A stretch of DNA of 64,000 nt from Marinicella sediminis (GTDB lineage: Bacteria; Pseudomonadota; Gammaproteobacteria; Xanthomonadales; Marinicellaceae). Each line of letters starts with the position of its first letter. Position 1 is the stretch's first letter. The stretch spans positions 1-64,000 of the forward strand of contig NZ_MVBD01000007.1 of NCBI RefSeq assembly GCF_002000055.1, read 5' to 3'. The position numbers and the translations under genes are program-made. A model generated the notes under the pieces. The model was not told where the DNA came from. It did no database searches and was given only the letters and a program-made list of their open reading frames with translations. Below are positions 13,976-19,138 of the stretch, one piece after another.

Positions 13976-15367
13976 TCAATCTGTTCTCGACAGGGTCAAG
14001 CCACTGAGGTAGGCAAAGCGTCCGGTCCCGGATGGGCTCACATCAATGGACAACTCAATTGTATCACTGCCGGTCAGACCATCGAATACCACACTACCGG
14101 TGGTGTTATCGGACACTTCCAGGTCTTCGAACTGGCCATCGATGGTGTAGCGGGTAAGGCGTCCGTTGCCACCATCATTGCCTGAACGGCTGGCGTAAAG
14201 TTCAAGGCGATAGGTCGCCAACGCATCCAAACCTGCAATCTCCACTGTGGCTGACTCCAGTAACGCTGCTGCGTGACCATCAAATGAACCGACCCAGAAA
14301 TTGTCCGCGGTGACGGATTCCGGCACACCCACTCCATTGGCGGCTATGCCATTTTGGTTGGTGCCATTGAATGCATCACTGATGACCACACTGACGGTGG
14401 TGACAGTGGCCTGATCATCGGTCAGCTGGATGGTTGAACCGGCGGTGTTATGAAGGTTGTTCCAGGGTACCGCAGTGGCACCGGCCTGGATCCCAAAATC
14501 CACCTCGACATCCCGACCGGTCGCCAACGGCTCAGGATCAGTAATCGCTGGGTTTTTATAGCCCAGGAACCAGTCATAGATGTCATGTCCGGCTGACAAA
14601 TCATAGGTCCGTTGCCAGGAGTTGTGACCCACCCCCGGATAAATCACCATGCGCGTGTCAATTGGCGCCGGGTCGGTGCAACTGAGCAGGTTGTTAATCG
14701 GACCAGTGGTACCGCCCACGCCGACGGTGCCATCGGCATCGCCATGAAAGGCCCAGATCGGTACCCGGTTCAACTCACAACCCGCTGAGTTATACGCTGA
14801 GTTACCGTTTCCGGCGATGGGCACCACCGCAGCAATCTGGTTGTTGGTGTGTGCGGCCAGGTAATTCCAACTACCTATGGCGCCACAACTGAGACCGGTC
14901 AGATAAACCCGTTTGGGATTGATGCGGTATTCAGTTTTGGCGAACTGAATGAAATCAAAAATGCTTGATGCGCGGGTACAACCACCCAAAGAATTCTGCG
15001 GCGACAACACCACAAACGGCAAGTCCTCCTGCCATTCATCATCAGCTATCAGACGAGGTATGCCAGTACTCAGCAAATCATCGATCTGGCTGTCACCATC
15101 GCCGTTCTCGCCCAACCCGTGGATGAATACCAGCAGAGGGTATGCCTGCGCATCCTGATCATATCCTGGTGGCAGGTATTCATAGTAACCCTGATTTGAT
15201 GCTGTGGTCCCCAAGGTCCTGGAGACATGCCGGTCAGAAGTTAATCCGGTGAAATTGCACAACACCGGTAAATCATCGTTGAACTCAAAACCAAACCGAC
15301 TGAGGGTATCGCAGGCATGAGCAGTACCCGCCGCCAACAGCAGCAACACAAACAGCAATCGTTTCAT
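13976..15367 (-). CDS. Secreted PHB-depolymerase/LpqC-like esterase with C-terminal beta domain
   Basis: A 463-aa exported alpha/beta hydrolase. Signal peptide MKRLLFVLLLLAAGTAHA is followed by CDTLSRFGFEF. The hydrolase domain (about residues 60-270) has the oxyanion-site HGLGENG, nucleophile Ser in GLSCGAIG, Asp in HGDADGTV and His in GVGHNSW, the layout of LpqC/poly(3-hydroxybutyrate) depolymerase-like esterases. The final ~180 residues are beta-rich (ATYRLELYASRSGNDG), resembling a carbohydrate- or surface-binding module. The start could also be the ATG three codons upstream at 15376. The substrate, a polyester or feruloyl-type ester, cannot be decided. Confidence 0.85.
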   Translation of the reverse strand: MKRLLFVLLLLAAGTAHACDTLSRFGFEFNDDLPVLCNFTGLTSDRHVSRTLGTTASNQGYYEYLPPGYDQDAQAYPLLVFIHGLGENGDGDSQIDDLLSTGIPRLIADDEWQEDLPFVVLSPQNSLGGCTRASSIFDFIQFAKTEYRINPKRVYLTGLSCGAIGSWNYLAAHTNNQIAAVVPIAGNGNSAYNSAGCELNRVPIWAFHGDADGTVGVGGTTGPINNLLSCTDPAPIDTRMVIYPGVGHNSWQRTYDLSAGHDIYDWFLGYKNPAITDPEPLATGRDVEVDFGIQAGATAVPWNNLHNTAGSTIQLTDDQATVTTVSVVISDAFNGTNQNGIAANGVGVPESVTADNFWVGSFDGHAAALLESATVEIAGLDALATYRLELYASRSGNDGGNGRLTRYTIDGQFEDLEVSDNTTGSVVFDGLTGSDTIELSIDVSPSGTGRFAYLSGLTLSRTD

Positions 15368-15562
15368 CGGTCTCATCAGAATCTTTGGATTAAATAAAAC
15401 ATAGCACAGGCTGACCAGTGGTGCCTATCCATTGAGGCGGTTTTTGTGACGCCGTGCTGCTTTAAAGAGCAAATAAACAAATCTGCTGAGCTGTGGTGTA
15501 CCTATCGCCGTTCAGCTGAAGTGCCGGCACTTCACCGAATTGAATGTGCTCACAGGATAAGG

Positions 15563-15657
15563 TGAGATGAGAACATCATGCAGCCATGTGTGCTGTTTGC
15601 TTGGGTCCGGGTGTGTGCCTGCTGATTGCACACACGGCTTGAATGATTTGTTAAGTT
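15563..15657 (-). repeat. Decayed terminal attC-like site
   Basis: On the minus strand it begins ACTTAACA, which supplies the stop codon of the adjoining cassette gene, then ATTCAAGCC. An internal perfect 8-bp stem pairs GTGTGTGC (15611-15618) with GCACACAC (15628-15635). The far end (GGCTGCATGATG) resembles the expected complement but lacks a good GTTRRRY core. This is probably the last, degenerated site of the array. Confidence 0.5.
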
Positions 15658-16016
15658 TCTTCAATCTTATTTACCTGGTAATATTCATGAACAGCAGGAT
15701 TTACCCATACTTTTATTTGCTCGGGAAACTCTTCTTTTTTATTTAGCCCAGACTCTATAAGCACTCCATCTTTACATTCGAGTAAAATTGATTTATTGAA
15801 ATCTGGTAGTTCTCATTCACCAATCACCCAGTAAAACTCATGCTGATCATCACTTGATGAATCAGTTAAATAGCATTTACCTTCAACAAGTTTAGGCCAG
15901 CTTGGGTCTTGATCGAGATACTCTTCAGCATCATTTCTTTCCGGAACAAAATTCGGATCTGGATCAACAAGTGCTATCCCTGTCATTTTTTTAAAGAACC
16001 ATTTGTAGAGTCCCAC
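15651..16016 (-). pseudogene. Cassette gene interrupted by an in-frame TGA
   Basis: Starting at GTG 16016 (SD AAGGAGA), the frame encodes 67 residues (MGLYKWFFKKMTGIALVDPD... FYWVIGE), then TGA at 15815-15813, and continues in the same frame for 53 more protein-like codons (ELPDFNKSILLECKDG...) to TAA at 15653-15651. That TAA is embedded in the attC core exactly as in the other four cassettes, so the 121-codon frame was the original gene and the TGA is an internal nonsense change, most simply TGG to TGA. Family unknown; a short acidic cytoplasmic protein. Recoding as selenocysteine is not supported. Confidence 0.75.
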
Positions 16017-16031
16017 AATCTCTCCTTGAAA

Positions 16032-16090
16032 ACCTAACGCGTTAATAAGCCGCGCGTCTTTTTTGCATCGGCTTGATTTGATTGTTAGGG
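16032..16090 (-). repeat. attC site
   Basis: In minus orientation it runs from CCCTAAC (16090) to GTTAGGT (16032), 59 bp, with internal arms AATCAAGCCG and GCGGCTTATT. It carries the TAA stop of the 16085-16519 gene and precedes the ribosome site of the next cassette. Confidence 0.85.
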
Positions 16091-16519
16091 TTCGATAGCA
16101 CTAAACACACTATCATAGTCATTTGACTTTACCCATTCAGATATCGGTGGTTCATACGATAGCACATCAACAAAATAACTCATGGATAGAAACTGGTAAT
16201 GAACAGGAATCCTCCCGTCACCCTGCAATCTAGAATCAGTAAATGACTTTATCCACTCAGAATTTTCCACAACTAGAAGTGGATAGCCTCCATTGTTATT
16301 TGGGATGGCTGGAATGTTTTCATTATAATCAACATGGGGATGGGCAAATTCTTCATGTATTGTCATGGCATGTATTTGAGAAAATTCTAACTTCAAATCA
16401 TTATCACTCCCATGTAACAAAAGAATAGTGTGACCATTTCCCAACGAAAAGACAGAAATTCCACCGAATGGTTCTGTTATTCGATAATCTGGTTTCCAAA
16501 TATTGTACGACTGCTCCAT
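16085..16519 (-). CDS. Cassette-encoded hypothetical protein, 144 aa
   Basis: A soluble acidic protein (MEQSYNIWKPDYRITEPFGG...) with no signal peptide or membrane segment and no recognised domain. ATG 16519 has AGGG from the preceding attC core five bases upstream; a GTG two codons earlier is possible. The segment IHEEFAHPHVDYNENIPAIPN and the Trp/Tyr-rich C-terminal half suggest a compact alpha/beta fold. Its stop codon lies in the attC at 16032-16090. Cassette proteins are often immunity, toxin or unknown small proteins; nothing here decides between these. Confidence 0.7.
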   Translation of the reverse strand: MEQSYNIWKPDYRITEPFGGISVFSLGNGHTILLLHGSDNDLKLEFSQIHAMTIHEEFAHPHVDYNENIPAIPNNNGGYPLLVVENSEWIKSFTDSRLQGDGRIPVHYQFLSMSYFVDVLSYEPPISEWVKSNDYDSVFSAIEP

Positions 16520-16524
16520 ATTCA

Positions 16525-16602
16525 CCCTAACGCCTTGCCCACAGGCCGAACGAATGTGAGGTCCAGAACGTTTGCGTGCGATTGTGCGGCAACTTGTTAG
16601 CT
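16525..16602 (-). repeat. attC site
   Basis: In minus orientation AGCTAAC (16602) to GTTAGGG (16525), 78 bp. Arms AAGTTGCCGC and CAAGGCG-type sequence flank a less-paired centre. It supplies the stop of the 16597-16986 gene and the AGGG ribosome site of the next. Confidence 0.85.
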
Positions 16603-16986
16603 GTATGCACTGTGGCTGCCCTTAATTTCAATTTTAAACCCAGTAGCGTTGACCACCCATTGAACCCATGGCTCGCGATTTAGGAAGCCACCGAACTCAA
16701 AGGTGTCACCATTAAAATCTAAGTTCATGACCTCATCAATTGGAAAGTCTGGACTTGGATGCGGCTTGCCTTCTTTGTCATCGTACCAGAATAATGGTAA
16801 TTCATCTGTGACATTGAGAAGATGCAAAACACCAGATTCAATTACCCAATCTTCTCCTTTAGAATCTGGATGCTCTTTACTTAGAAAAGCGCCTTCAAAT
16901 TCTATAGAAATCTCACCTGGCTTCCGATCGATTTTTTCAATCGAAGCATCGTGAAAACTAAGCTTGTCGAAGTTTGTAGTGATCAT
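16597..16986 (-). CDS. Cassette-encoded hypothetical protein, 129 aa
   Basis: A soluble acidic protein beginning MITTNFDKLSFHDASIEKIDR. The SFHDA opening followed by alternating beta strands (ISIEFEGAFLS, LPLFWYDDKEG) and the ending EPWVQWVVNATGFKIEIKG recall small Imm-type or DUF proteins common in cassette arrays, but I cannot name a family. Start ATG 16986 follows AAAAGAG. The TAA stop is within the attC at 16525-16602. Confidence 0.72.
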   Translation of the reverse strand: MITTNFDKLSFHDASIEKIDRKPGEISIEFEGAFLSKEHPDSKGEDWVIESGVLHLLNVTDELPLFWYDDKEGKPHPSPDFPIDEVMNLDFNGDTFEFGGFLNREPWVQWVVNATGFKIEIKGSHSAYS

Positions 16987-16996
16987 CTCTTTTTGC

Positions 16997-17086
16997 AGCT
17001 AACGTTTTCGCTGAACCGCGCCGCCGATAAACATACCTCGTAGCGCCACTATGCTTTTCGGCGTCGGATCGAGCGGTTTGTTAGAT
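16997..17086 (-). repeat. attC site
   Basis: In minus orientation ATCTAAC (17086) to GTTAGCT (16997), 90 bp. AAACCGCTCG near one end pairs with the CGCGGTTCAGCG arm near the other, with further pairing around GGCGGC/GCGCC. Confidence 0.85.
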
Positions 17087-17434
17087 AGCATTGCTTCGTT
17101 CCCAACAAGTAAAAGTCTCATTTGAAGTGCTATTCATGCCCTTAATTTCAAACCCTGGAAGATTTTTTAAATTATTTATCACATCATCGCATCCTGATGC
17201 TCCCAACGGGAATAAAACTTCACAAGAATTTGATCTAAGGACAAACCACACATCTATCCCCCATGGTCCAGTATCGTTGATTTGTACTTCAACTTTTAAT
17301 AAGCTATTCCATGCAATCGAATCTTTAGTGCCGTCTGGGGACAGCACCGATAATTGGGTGCCATCGTCGCTGACAAGATACTTATTCTCTAGATTCAGAT
17401 GTTTCCTTTTAGTAAATTTAGTAAATAGTCCCAT
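17081..17434 (-). CDS. Cassette-encoded hypothetical protein, 117 aa
   Basis: A soluble protein beginning MGLFTKFTKRKHLNLENKYLV with beta-rich pattern (WGIDVWFVLRSNSCEVLFPLG) and ending FEIKGMNSTSNETFTCWERS. The last part (LPGFEIKGM, FTCWER) looks like a conserved signature, but no family name comes to mind. ATG 17434 follows AGAGAG contributed by the adjoining attC core. The stop TAA lies in the attC at 16997-17086. The opposite strand also has a long open frame here, which I regard as a shadow because the strand of this gene fits the array. Confidence 0.7.
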   Translation of the reverse strand: MGLFTKFTKRKHLNLENKYLVSDDGTQLSVLSPDGTKDSIAWNSLLKVEVQINDTGPWGIDVWFVLRSNSCEVLFPLGASGCDDVINNLKNLPGFEIKGMNSTSNETFTCWERSNAI

Positions 17435-17440
17435 TTAGCT

Positions 17441-17551
17441 CTCTAACGCCCGGCTAAACCGCCGGAACGGAGTTGGTTGTTTTGTGCGAGCGTAGCGGAA
17501 AAGCACAAAACAACCAACGCAGTGAAGGTCGGTTTGAGCCGCTTGTTAACT
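17441..17551 (-). repeat. attC site with long perfect hairpin
   Basis: In minus orientation AGTTAAC (17551) to GTTAGAG (17441), 111 bp. The centre is a perfect 16-bp stem, GTTGGTTGTTTTGTGC at 17472-17487 against its complement at 17503-17518, with a 15-base loop. AGCGGCTC and GCCGGGC-type arms flank it. Confidence 0.88.
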
Positions 17552-17929
17552 GTGATATGGACCGGACCATACGTAGCCTTCCCTTTTAGTTTTAAAATCG
17601 CCTTCGATTAGCTGGGTACCACCACCTTTCATTGCACTACCCCACATAAATATTTTATCGTTAAACATATCTTGGAGGTATTCAGCTACCTCTGAAACTA
17701 TTTCCTTAACCTCTTCGATATCATCTGATTTCTCGTTGATATAACCGCAATGCCAATGAGTAAAGTTTCCTACAAAAATAGTGAGTTCATCATAGTCATC
17801 TTGGATATCGATACTGCCAACTTGCTCATAAGCTGGTGGAATAGAAATTAGCTTCTTCCCATCGTCAGCACTAAATTGTAACGATGGGAACTTATCTTCT
17901 ATTTCTTTCTTCATCGCTTCGTAGAGCAT
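17546..17929 (-). CDS. Cassette-encoded hypothetical protein, 127 aa
   Basis: A soluble acidic protein, MLYEAMKKEIEDKFPSLQFSADDG..., with strand pattern DELTIFVGNFTHWHCGYINE, a helical stretch EEVKEIVSEVAEYLQDMFNDKI and a Gly/Trp end (MWGSAMKGGGTQLIEG). No family recognised. ATG 17929 is preceded by AAGAGGAATC, a good ribosome site, lying just after the GTTAACT core at 17944. The stop is in the attC at 17441-17551. It is the first cassette in the direction of transcription. Confidence 0.75.
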   Translation of the reverse strand: MLYEAMKKEIEDKFPSLQFSADDGKKLISIPPAYEQVGSIDIQDDYDELTIFVGNFTHWHCGYINEKSDDIEEVKEIVSEVAEYLQDMFNDKIFMWGSAMKGGGTQLIEGDFKTKREGYVWSGPYHS

Positions 17930-17943
17930 GATTCCTCTTGTAC

Positions 17944-17950
17944 AGTTAAC
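17944..17950 (-). repeat. Terminal GTTAACT core of the cassette array
   Basis: This core marks the 5' boundary of the first cassette. Further right, 17992-18110 forms a nested imperfect palindrome (CGTGCACATCT against AGATGTGCATG outside, AGTCATTGATTTC against GAAATCATTGACT inside) that could be a decayed attC or another hairpin. Confidence 0.5.
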
Positions 17951-18062
17951 AATTTATTAATGGTGCATCTGTGCCATCTATCAAGATATTGGCGTTTATT
18001 CGTGCACATCTTTTTCTATGGGTTCATTGTAAGTCATTGATTTCTCACTTTGAAGGAAATCA

Positions 18063-18272
18063 TTGACTGCGTCATTATCAGGTAATGGGCGGATAGATGT
18101 GCATGAATGCGTTAATTTACGTCTATTACAGGCTTTAAGTGCAATAAATGAAATTATTGGATCATGTGGCGACCAAACTAAGATTGCTTCACTAAAGCAG
18201 AAAAACCGAGATCAATTACGTCTCATGGATCAAGAAATATATTTTGAAATTCATTGGGGTCAGTGTCAGTGA
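18063..18272 (+). CDS. Possible small ORF, 69 aa, ending in a REP-like repeat
   Basis: TTG start at 18063 with AAGGAA five bases upstream. The frame has protein-like content (ALSAINEIIGSCGDQTKIASLKQ) but its last codons (HWGQCQ) are encoded by the REP-like repeat, suggesting a truncated gene. No family is recognised and the start lies inside a palindrome. It may equally be non-coding. Confidence 0.3.
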   Translation: MTASLSGNGRIDVHECVNLRLLQALSAINEIIGSCGDQTKIASLKQKNRDQLRLMDQEIYFEIHWGQCQ

Positions 18273-18326
18273 TTTTGGTCCTGATCTGCCGACTTTCATA
18301 CTTTTCAGCACCTCTGACCCCAATGT
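18249..18326. repeat. REP-like inverted pair with GGGGTCAG core
   Basis: CATTGGGGTCAG at about 18252 is mirrored by CTGACCCCAATG ending near 18325. It is a variant of the elements at 3281 and 4249 and lies just past the 3' end of the lipoprotein gene, where it may also stabilise transcript ends. Confidence 0.7.
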
Positions 18327-18358
18327 GTTTACCACTGTTCAGTCACTGCAATGGTTTG

Positions 18359-19138
18359 TTAAAACGCAACTTGCAGGCTGCTGCCAGGATTGGAGCCACC
18401 GATGATTCGAAAGTAACCACTGCCGATGGTGCGACCAGCCAGTTTTCGGTTGCGATTGGTGGCCCCTGGTTGTACCGTGAAGGTTTCCAGTATTTGGCCA
18501 GTGGCAATCGAAATGAAATCAATGGTCACCGCTGCGTTGCCGTTGTTTTGAATGAAGCCAATGGTTCGTCGATCAACAGGTGCATTCGGATCATCGTTGG
18601 GCCAATTTGGCGGTCGCCTGCTCAGCCATTGGGTTTGAAAATCGATTTCACCTGAACCGCCCACTTTCGCCAGGCGCCAACTCAAACTTTCCAGTTGAAA
18701 CAATTGCAGTTCATAGGAGCCGGTCGTGACCTGCCGGCCTTTGCTGTCTTTGGCCGATGCTTTAACCGTCAGACTTTCCCATTGGTTTGCTGCGATTCTG
18801 ATACCACCGTTGACCTCGGGTTTGCCTGGACTGATGTTGTCCACGTGCCGCGGTCGGGTGACCACCCCATTTAAACCATTGGTCACCACGTCAATGGTGA
18901 CTTCGGTGATTTTGGCGTCTTTGGTCTTGGCTGTGGTGTTGATGCGAATGTCCTGGGCTTCTGTTAACACCACCTGGTGCCCCGTACCCCTTGATCCTGT
19001 GGATGTGATTGCTTTGTGTTGAGTCCATGGACTGCCACTGGATACAATGGGTTTTGTTTCCAAAGACAACCTCACAGACGTACATCCGGCCAGCACTGTC
19101 AGCCATACACCCATCGTTATTAAATGCTTTATTTTCAT
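18359..19138 (-). CDS. Lipoprotein of unknown function
   Basis: A 259-aa protein with a lipoprotein signal, MKIKHLITMGVWLTVLAGC, Cys19 being the lipidation site. Start ATG 19138 follows AAAGGGGAATAA; an upstream frame extension is unlikely. The mature part is beta-rich: about residues 50-170 look like an immunoglobulin- or CARDB-like domain (ITEVTIDVVTNGLNG), and the C-terminal part (TIGFIQNNGNAAVTIDFISIATG) resembles a second small beta domain. No catalytic motif. Likely attached to the outer membrane. No close gene partners. Confidence 0.7.
   Translation of the reverse strand: MKIKHLITMGVWLTVLAGCTSVRLSLETKPIVSSGSPWTQHKAITSTGSRGTGHQVVLTEAQDIRINTTAKTKDAKITEVTIDVVTNGLNGVVTRPRHVDNISPGKPEVNGGIRIAANQWESLTVKASAKDSKGRQVTTGSYELQLFQLESLSWRLAKVGGSGEIDFQTQWLSRRPPNWPNDDPNAPVDRRTIGFIQNNGNAAVTIDFISIATGQILETFTVQPGATNRNRKLAGRTIGSGYFRIIGGSNPGSSLQVAF

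Follow-up and report, generated by a model that had tools for sequence, protein, structure and literature searches.

A probable nonsense mutation in the distal cassette gene of a Marinicella sediminis integron with a relic integrase gene

Results

An interrupted gene at the end of a cassette array

The last gene of a five-cassette integron array in Marinicella sediminis has a TGA at codon 68 and then stays open in the same frame as far as the stop codon within its attC site. We put at roughly 0.84 the probability that this gene, once about 121 codons long, was hit by a nonsense change in an array without integrase. The premature stop is most likely that of a broken gene, a matter of ordinary decay rather than of a new way of reading a stop codon. 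The window, i.e., the whole stretch of 64,000 nucleotides that was analysed, had been described in an earlier note that reported the in-frame TGA and the continuing frame. Both are real, and the codon counts given there (67 before the TGA and 53 after it) are correct. The note gave no strand; readings of 15651-16016 on both strands place the gene on the minus strand, where a single stop precedes the final TAA, as against several stops on the plus strand. The elements of the gene are the following:

15651..16016, minus strand: gene of cassette 5, interrupted; it has a GTG start and, with the TGA read through, 121 codons
16020..16027, minus strand: Shine-Dalgarno-like AAGGAGAG, three bases upstream of the GTG, as seen in the sequence
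16014-16016, minus strand: GTG start codon, the first of the 67 codons up to the TGA
15813..15815, minus strand: in-frame TGA, codon 68, read directly in the sequence
15654..15812, minus strand: open stretch of 53 codons after the TGA, with a codon composition resembling that of the sister cassettes
15651-15653, minus strand: terminal TAA of the frame, inside the attC R'' core ACTTAAC (15650-15656)

The frame shows no second lesion after the TGA. It includes no in-frame ATG or TTG in this part and a single GTG, so the second half is unlikely to be translated separately.

The gene belongs to an array of five head-to-tail cassettes on the minus strand, from 15572 to about 17946, in which cassette 5 is the most distal from the attI end. 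From that distal end onwards, the array and the region that adjoins it comprise:

15572..15656, minus strand: attC of cassette 5, the last in the array, with R'' ACTTAAC and pairing arms that form an imperfect hairpin (fold z -1.33)
16032..16090, minus strand: attC of cassette 4, from its cores and fold (z -0.47)
16085..16525, minus strand: cassette 4 gene, an intact ORF of 146 aa
16526..16602, minus strand: attC of cassette 3, from its cores and fold (z -1.39)
16597..16986, minus strand: cassette 3 gene, an intact ORF of 129 aa
16998..17086, minus strand: attC of cassette 2, from its cores and fold (z -0.98)
17081..17434, minus strand: cassette 2 gene, an intact ORF of 117 aa
17441..17551, minus strand: attC of cassette 1, from its cores and fold (z -5.72)
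17546..17929, minus strand: cassette 1 gene, an intact ORF of 127 aa that adjoins the attI-like region
17947..18245, no strand assigned: attI-like region and start of intI, 84% identical (250/299) to L002 1294-1592, the matching region beside the other intI of the genome
18148..18245, plus strand: intI relic, about 33 codons long, in which codon 16 is a TAA (18193-18195); unrelated sequence follows

Folding was one basis for assigning the five attC sites; resemblance to the cores, order, and position counted for as much. The support from folding is uneven, with z -5.72 at the attC of cassette 1 and no better than -0.47 to -1.39 at the remaining four. At the attC of cassette 5, 18 of 200 shuffles fold equally well. 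The strict R'' consensus is RYYYAAC, which two of the five R'' cores fit. The R' halves start with GTTAG at four of the five sites, and one of the five fits the strict R' core consensus, GTTRRRY in the excerpt of PMC8876359. The R' half of cassette 5, GTTCTCA, is off this consensus, as could be expected if the flank is chromosome. A scan for promoters and terminators gave no excess over shuffles (7 promoters against 7.6 expected and 1 terminator against 2.3).

Five cassettes on one strand, with an attI-like region and an intI relic on the plus strand, make up an integron-cassette array. As in chromosomal integrons, the genes are short and arranged head to tail on the same strand, each is followed by a sequence assigned as an attC with the stop in its R'' core, and a divergent intI and an attI-like region stand at one end of the array. 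Two features are unlike chromosomal integron cassettes: the frame of cassette 5 is broken by the TGA, and its attC, the last one, has a non-consensus R'.

The integrase gene of the array and its relatives

There is no intact integrase gene beside the array; the genome has eight matches to TIGR02249 (E 1e-5), none of them on the contig of the window. The second intI copy lies on another contig (L002 1444-2205; G000:C5:32840-33535) and matches only positions 1-230 of the 315 of the integrase model, with its C-terminal part absent and a score about at the model cut-off. Divergent cassette-like ORFs adjoin this copy. An integrase match above the cut-off is present in 13 of 18 genomes from the genus; one of these matches is the truncated copy just described and the other 12 are full-length, spanning at least positions 2-313 (12 of the 17 other genomes searched). 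One congener also has an intI remnant (G003:C19:274389-274592) that covers positions 2-69 only, with an in-frame TAG, and is comparable in extent with the relic of the window.

A short inverted repeat, TGGGGTCAG, occurs at 18255-18263 and 18314-18322, close after the intI relic. It has five copies in the window (3288, 4261, 18255, 18314, and 30417) for 0.79 expected, and none of 100 shuffles reaches five, in a count for which the pattern was picked after the inverted pair at 18255 and 18314, itself two of the five copies, had been seen. It is possibly a small dispersed repeat.

The frame beyond the TGA resembles a coding sequence

The strongest single point for a coding second half is the place where the frame ends, on the TAA of the R'' core. 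The earlier note had remarked that every cassette here ends in this way, and the frames of all five do. Beside the 12 full-length integrase genes of the congeners, 26 divergent ORFs have 70 codons or more; these are mechanical calls, many of them surely spurious. Nine of the 26 end at TAACAA, at eight of the 12 loci, so a core stop is common in the genus. One of the four loci that have no ORF ending at TAACAA has just 52 bases on that side, and no ORF.

The composition of the stretch points the same way. Dinucleotide shuffling of the 159 post-TGA bases leaves the 53 codons open in only 129 of 20,000 sequences, and their codon score, under a model drawn from the four intact sister cassettes, is reached by only 187 of 20,000. 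When the six frames of the stretch are scored with this cassette model, the reading frame comes first (0.047), and the next has -0.049. By the cassette codon model and the shuffles, the sequence after the stop is coding-like in the same frame, which is a mark of a pseudogene. The G+C content by codon position is 0.55/0.33/0.30 before the TGA and 0.55/0.21/0.23 after it. A model from 33 long ORFs of the window provides no separation, with 11,148 of 20,000 shuffles matching the post-TGA score. This chromosomal model cannot judge cassette genes, because it also gives negative scores to all four intact sister cassettes.

An assembly or base-calling error, with the gene intact in the organism, would leave precisely one stop in an otherwise open frame, which is the sole difference from the intact sisters, and the assembly is a draft in 44 contigs. 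Against an error stand the quality of the genome (98.31% complete, 0.04% contaminated) and the rarity of isolated substitution errors in modern assemblies, and we consider such an origin of the TGA very improbable.

Searches for homologues

The read-through protein has no match in Pfam, NCBIfam, or PHROGs at E 1, nor by tblastn in plasmids and phages at E 0.01. Searches with patterns for it gave 1, 99, and 80 stretches in viral contigs and 23 in genome contigs, none of which was confirmed. A degenerate pattern, FYWV[VIM]G[DE], gave at least 116 stretches in genome contigs; tblastn on the 116 listed put none below E 0.10, and they were set aside as unrelated. In genome sets that overlap, the protein was found in its own genome (1/1), in 1 of 101 relatives, in 1 of 369 genomes of the class, and in 1 of 398 of the phylum, each match being the own genome. 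At E 0.1, five of 398 genomes of the order set match it, i.e., the own genome and four weak matches, and at E 0.01 there is one weak match among 296 genomes of the family of a Vibrio genome. The absence of matches in six chosen genomes and in 298 genomes of the Marinobacter order is uninformative, as neither set includes a positive genome. Of the weak matches, three (L014, L016, and L017) are short and were judged from their alignments to be due to chance, a fourth (L015) gave no alignment with tblastn, and L148 lies out of frame within a frame of 621 codons. The single match in the PDB (9d01, E 0.0068, molecule a-iTHR-201) was also taken as chance; no stretch passed alone. The AlphaFold model of the read-through protein, built without an alignment, has a mean pLDDT of 42, too poor for use.

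As a control, we searched the four sister cassettes against the plasmids with tblastn. Two of them have relatives, at 27-46% identity, which shows that this search is able to find relatives of cassettes; the other two have none, and the absence for cassette 5 is therefore not unusual. The relatives of the cassette 2 protein are on Novosphingobium and Burkholderia replicons, and those of the cassette 3 protein, at 37 and 46% identity, are on two replicons of Vibrio sp. THAF190c. In the set of relatives, the cassette 3 protein was found in its own genome (1/101) and in none of the 100 others. For cassette 5, it is composition, frame, and attC stop that suggest a formerly functional gene in the 121-codon form.

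The true product could instead be a protein of 67 residues, with the remainder either left over from a longer ancestral frame or open by chance. The 67-codon frame does have a plausible start and ribosome site, and missing relatives are not telling, since two of the four intact sisters also lack them among plasmids. The post-TGA frame nevertheless stops at the attC-core TAA exactly like those of the other four cassettes, and few shuffles match it in openness or in codon score under the cassette model. We find it very doubtful that the gene was meant to end at codon 67.

TGA is an ordinary stop codon in the window

A TGA that is read through or recoded, by a near-cognate tRNA or as selenocysteine, would yield products of 67 and 121 residues and would fit a post-TGA frame that was kept without any second lesion. 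The gene is like those of bacterial selenoproteins, in which UGA is read as Sec, in that the frame is open on either side of an in-frame TGA. It is unlike them in that the genome has no tRNA-Sec match above the cut-off and the locus no SECIS-like structure. The tRNA-Sec model had 12 matches in the genome (98.31% complete), of which the best, at 43.5 of the 47 bits needed, is a tRNA-Ser by ARAGORN; the nine inspected (eight genome loci and one in the window) all coincide with ordinary tRNAs by the same program. No SECIS-like or otherwise unusual fold was seen around or after the TGA (62 bases, z 0.22, with 109 of 200 shuffles folding equally well), and an Rfam scan of 15300-18500 found no family at its threshold. 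Among the 33 long ORFs that were taken from the window, TGA is the commonest stop, closing 23, so it acts here as an ordinary stop; a reassignment of TGA to Trp would leave it unused in this role. No homologue sharing the TGA was found in the collections searched.

The earlier note had held readthrough or recoding to be conceivable, and nothing in tRNA-Sec, folding, or stop usage came to its support; we regard it as extremely unlikely. That a leaky TGA, giving mostly the 67-residue and sometimes the 121-residue form, has been selected as a switch of dose or isoform is scarcely credible.

Discussion

The simple nonsense mutation that the earlier note thought likeliest is the best supported explanation, and the support comes from the context: the cassette is the distal one, the intI gene is a relic, tRNA-Sec is lacking at the cut-off, and TGA is an ordinary stop. 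The nonsense mutation may be placed in a sequence of events. The integrase gene of the five-cassette array would first have been reduced to a relic. As a consequence, cassette 5 would no longer be movable by any integrase of its own array. Cassette promoters normally sit at the attI end, from which this cassette is the most distant, and for this reason it is probably poorly expressed. In the excerpt of PMC11014356, cassettes are mostly promoterless and their expression is tied to the distance from the promoter at that end, with some carrying promoters of their own. The stop codon would then have arisen under little or no selection, and the product would probably have lost its function. The frame has otherwise stayed open, so the loss of cassette 5 is probably recent relative to that of the integrase. 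This order of events, the integrase first and the distal cassette gene afterwards, is suggested by the present state of the locus.

Several findings count against a nonsense mutation in a decaying array. Cassettes 1 to 4 have kept intact genes, and decay across the array is thus not visible. The post-TGA frame is without the second lesion that a long-dead gene should accumulate. Finally, the collections searched yielded no homologue of the read-through protein to back a functional 121-codon form, and the chromosomal codon model lends no support.

With five assigned attC sites and no more than an intI relic nearby, the locus belongs with the CALIN, in which two or more attC sites lack a usable integrase alongside; here the integrase was lost by a stop and a truncation. 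It is unlike a CALIN without any trace of intI in that a recognisable 5' relic of the gene persists in the window, which identifies the locus as an integron decayed in place. Such decay has precedents. Nearly a third of the intI genes surveyed are pseudogenes in the excerpt of PMC2426708, inactivation of intI is widespread in some Xanthomonas species according to that of PMC12444791, and the class 2 integrase usually carries a premature TAA (excerpt of PMC8876359). According to the excerpt of PMC9024848, clusters of attC sites that lack an integrase and complete integrons occur in about equal numbers. The excerpts of this literature deal with the decay of the integrase and of whole arrays rather than with stops within cassette genes.

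The finding means little beyond its locus, to which it adds a further example of the decay of a cassette gene after the loss of the integrase. It is a small and clean case, in which the order of loss is suggested to be the integrase first and then the distal cassette gene. It also advises caution: finding an in-frame TGA within a cassette array makes, by itself, a poor case for recoding.
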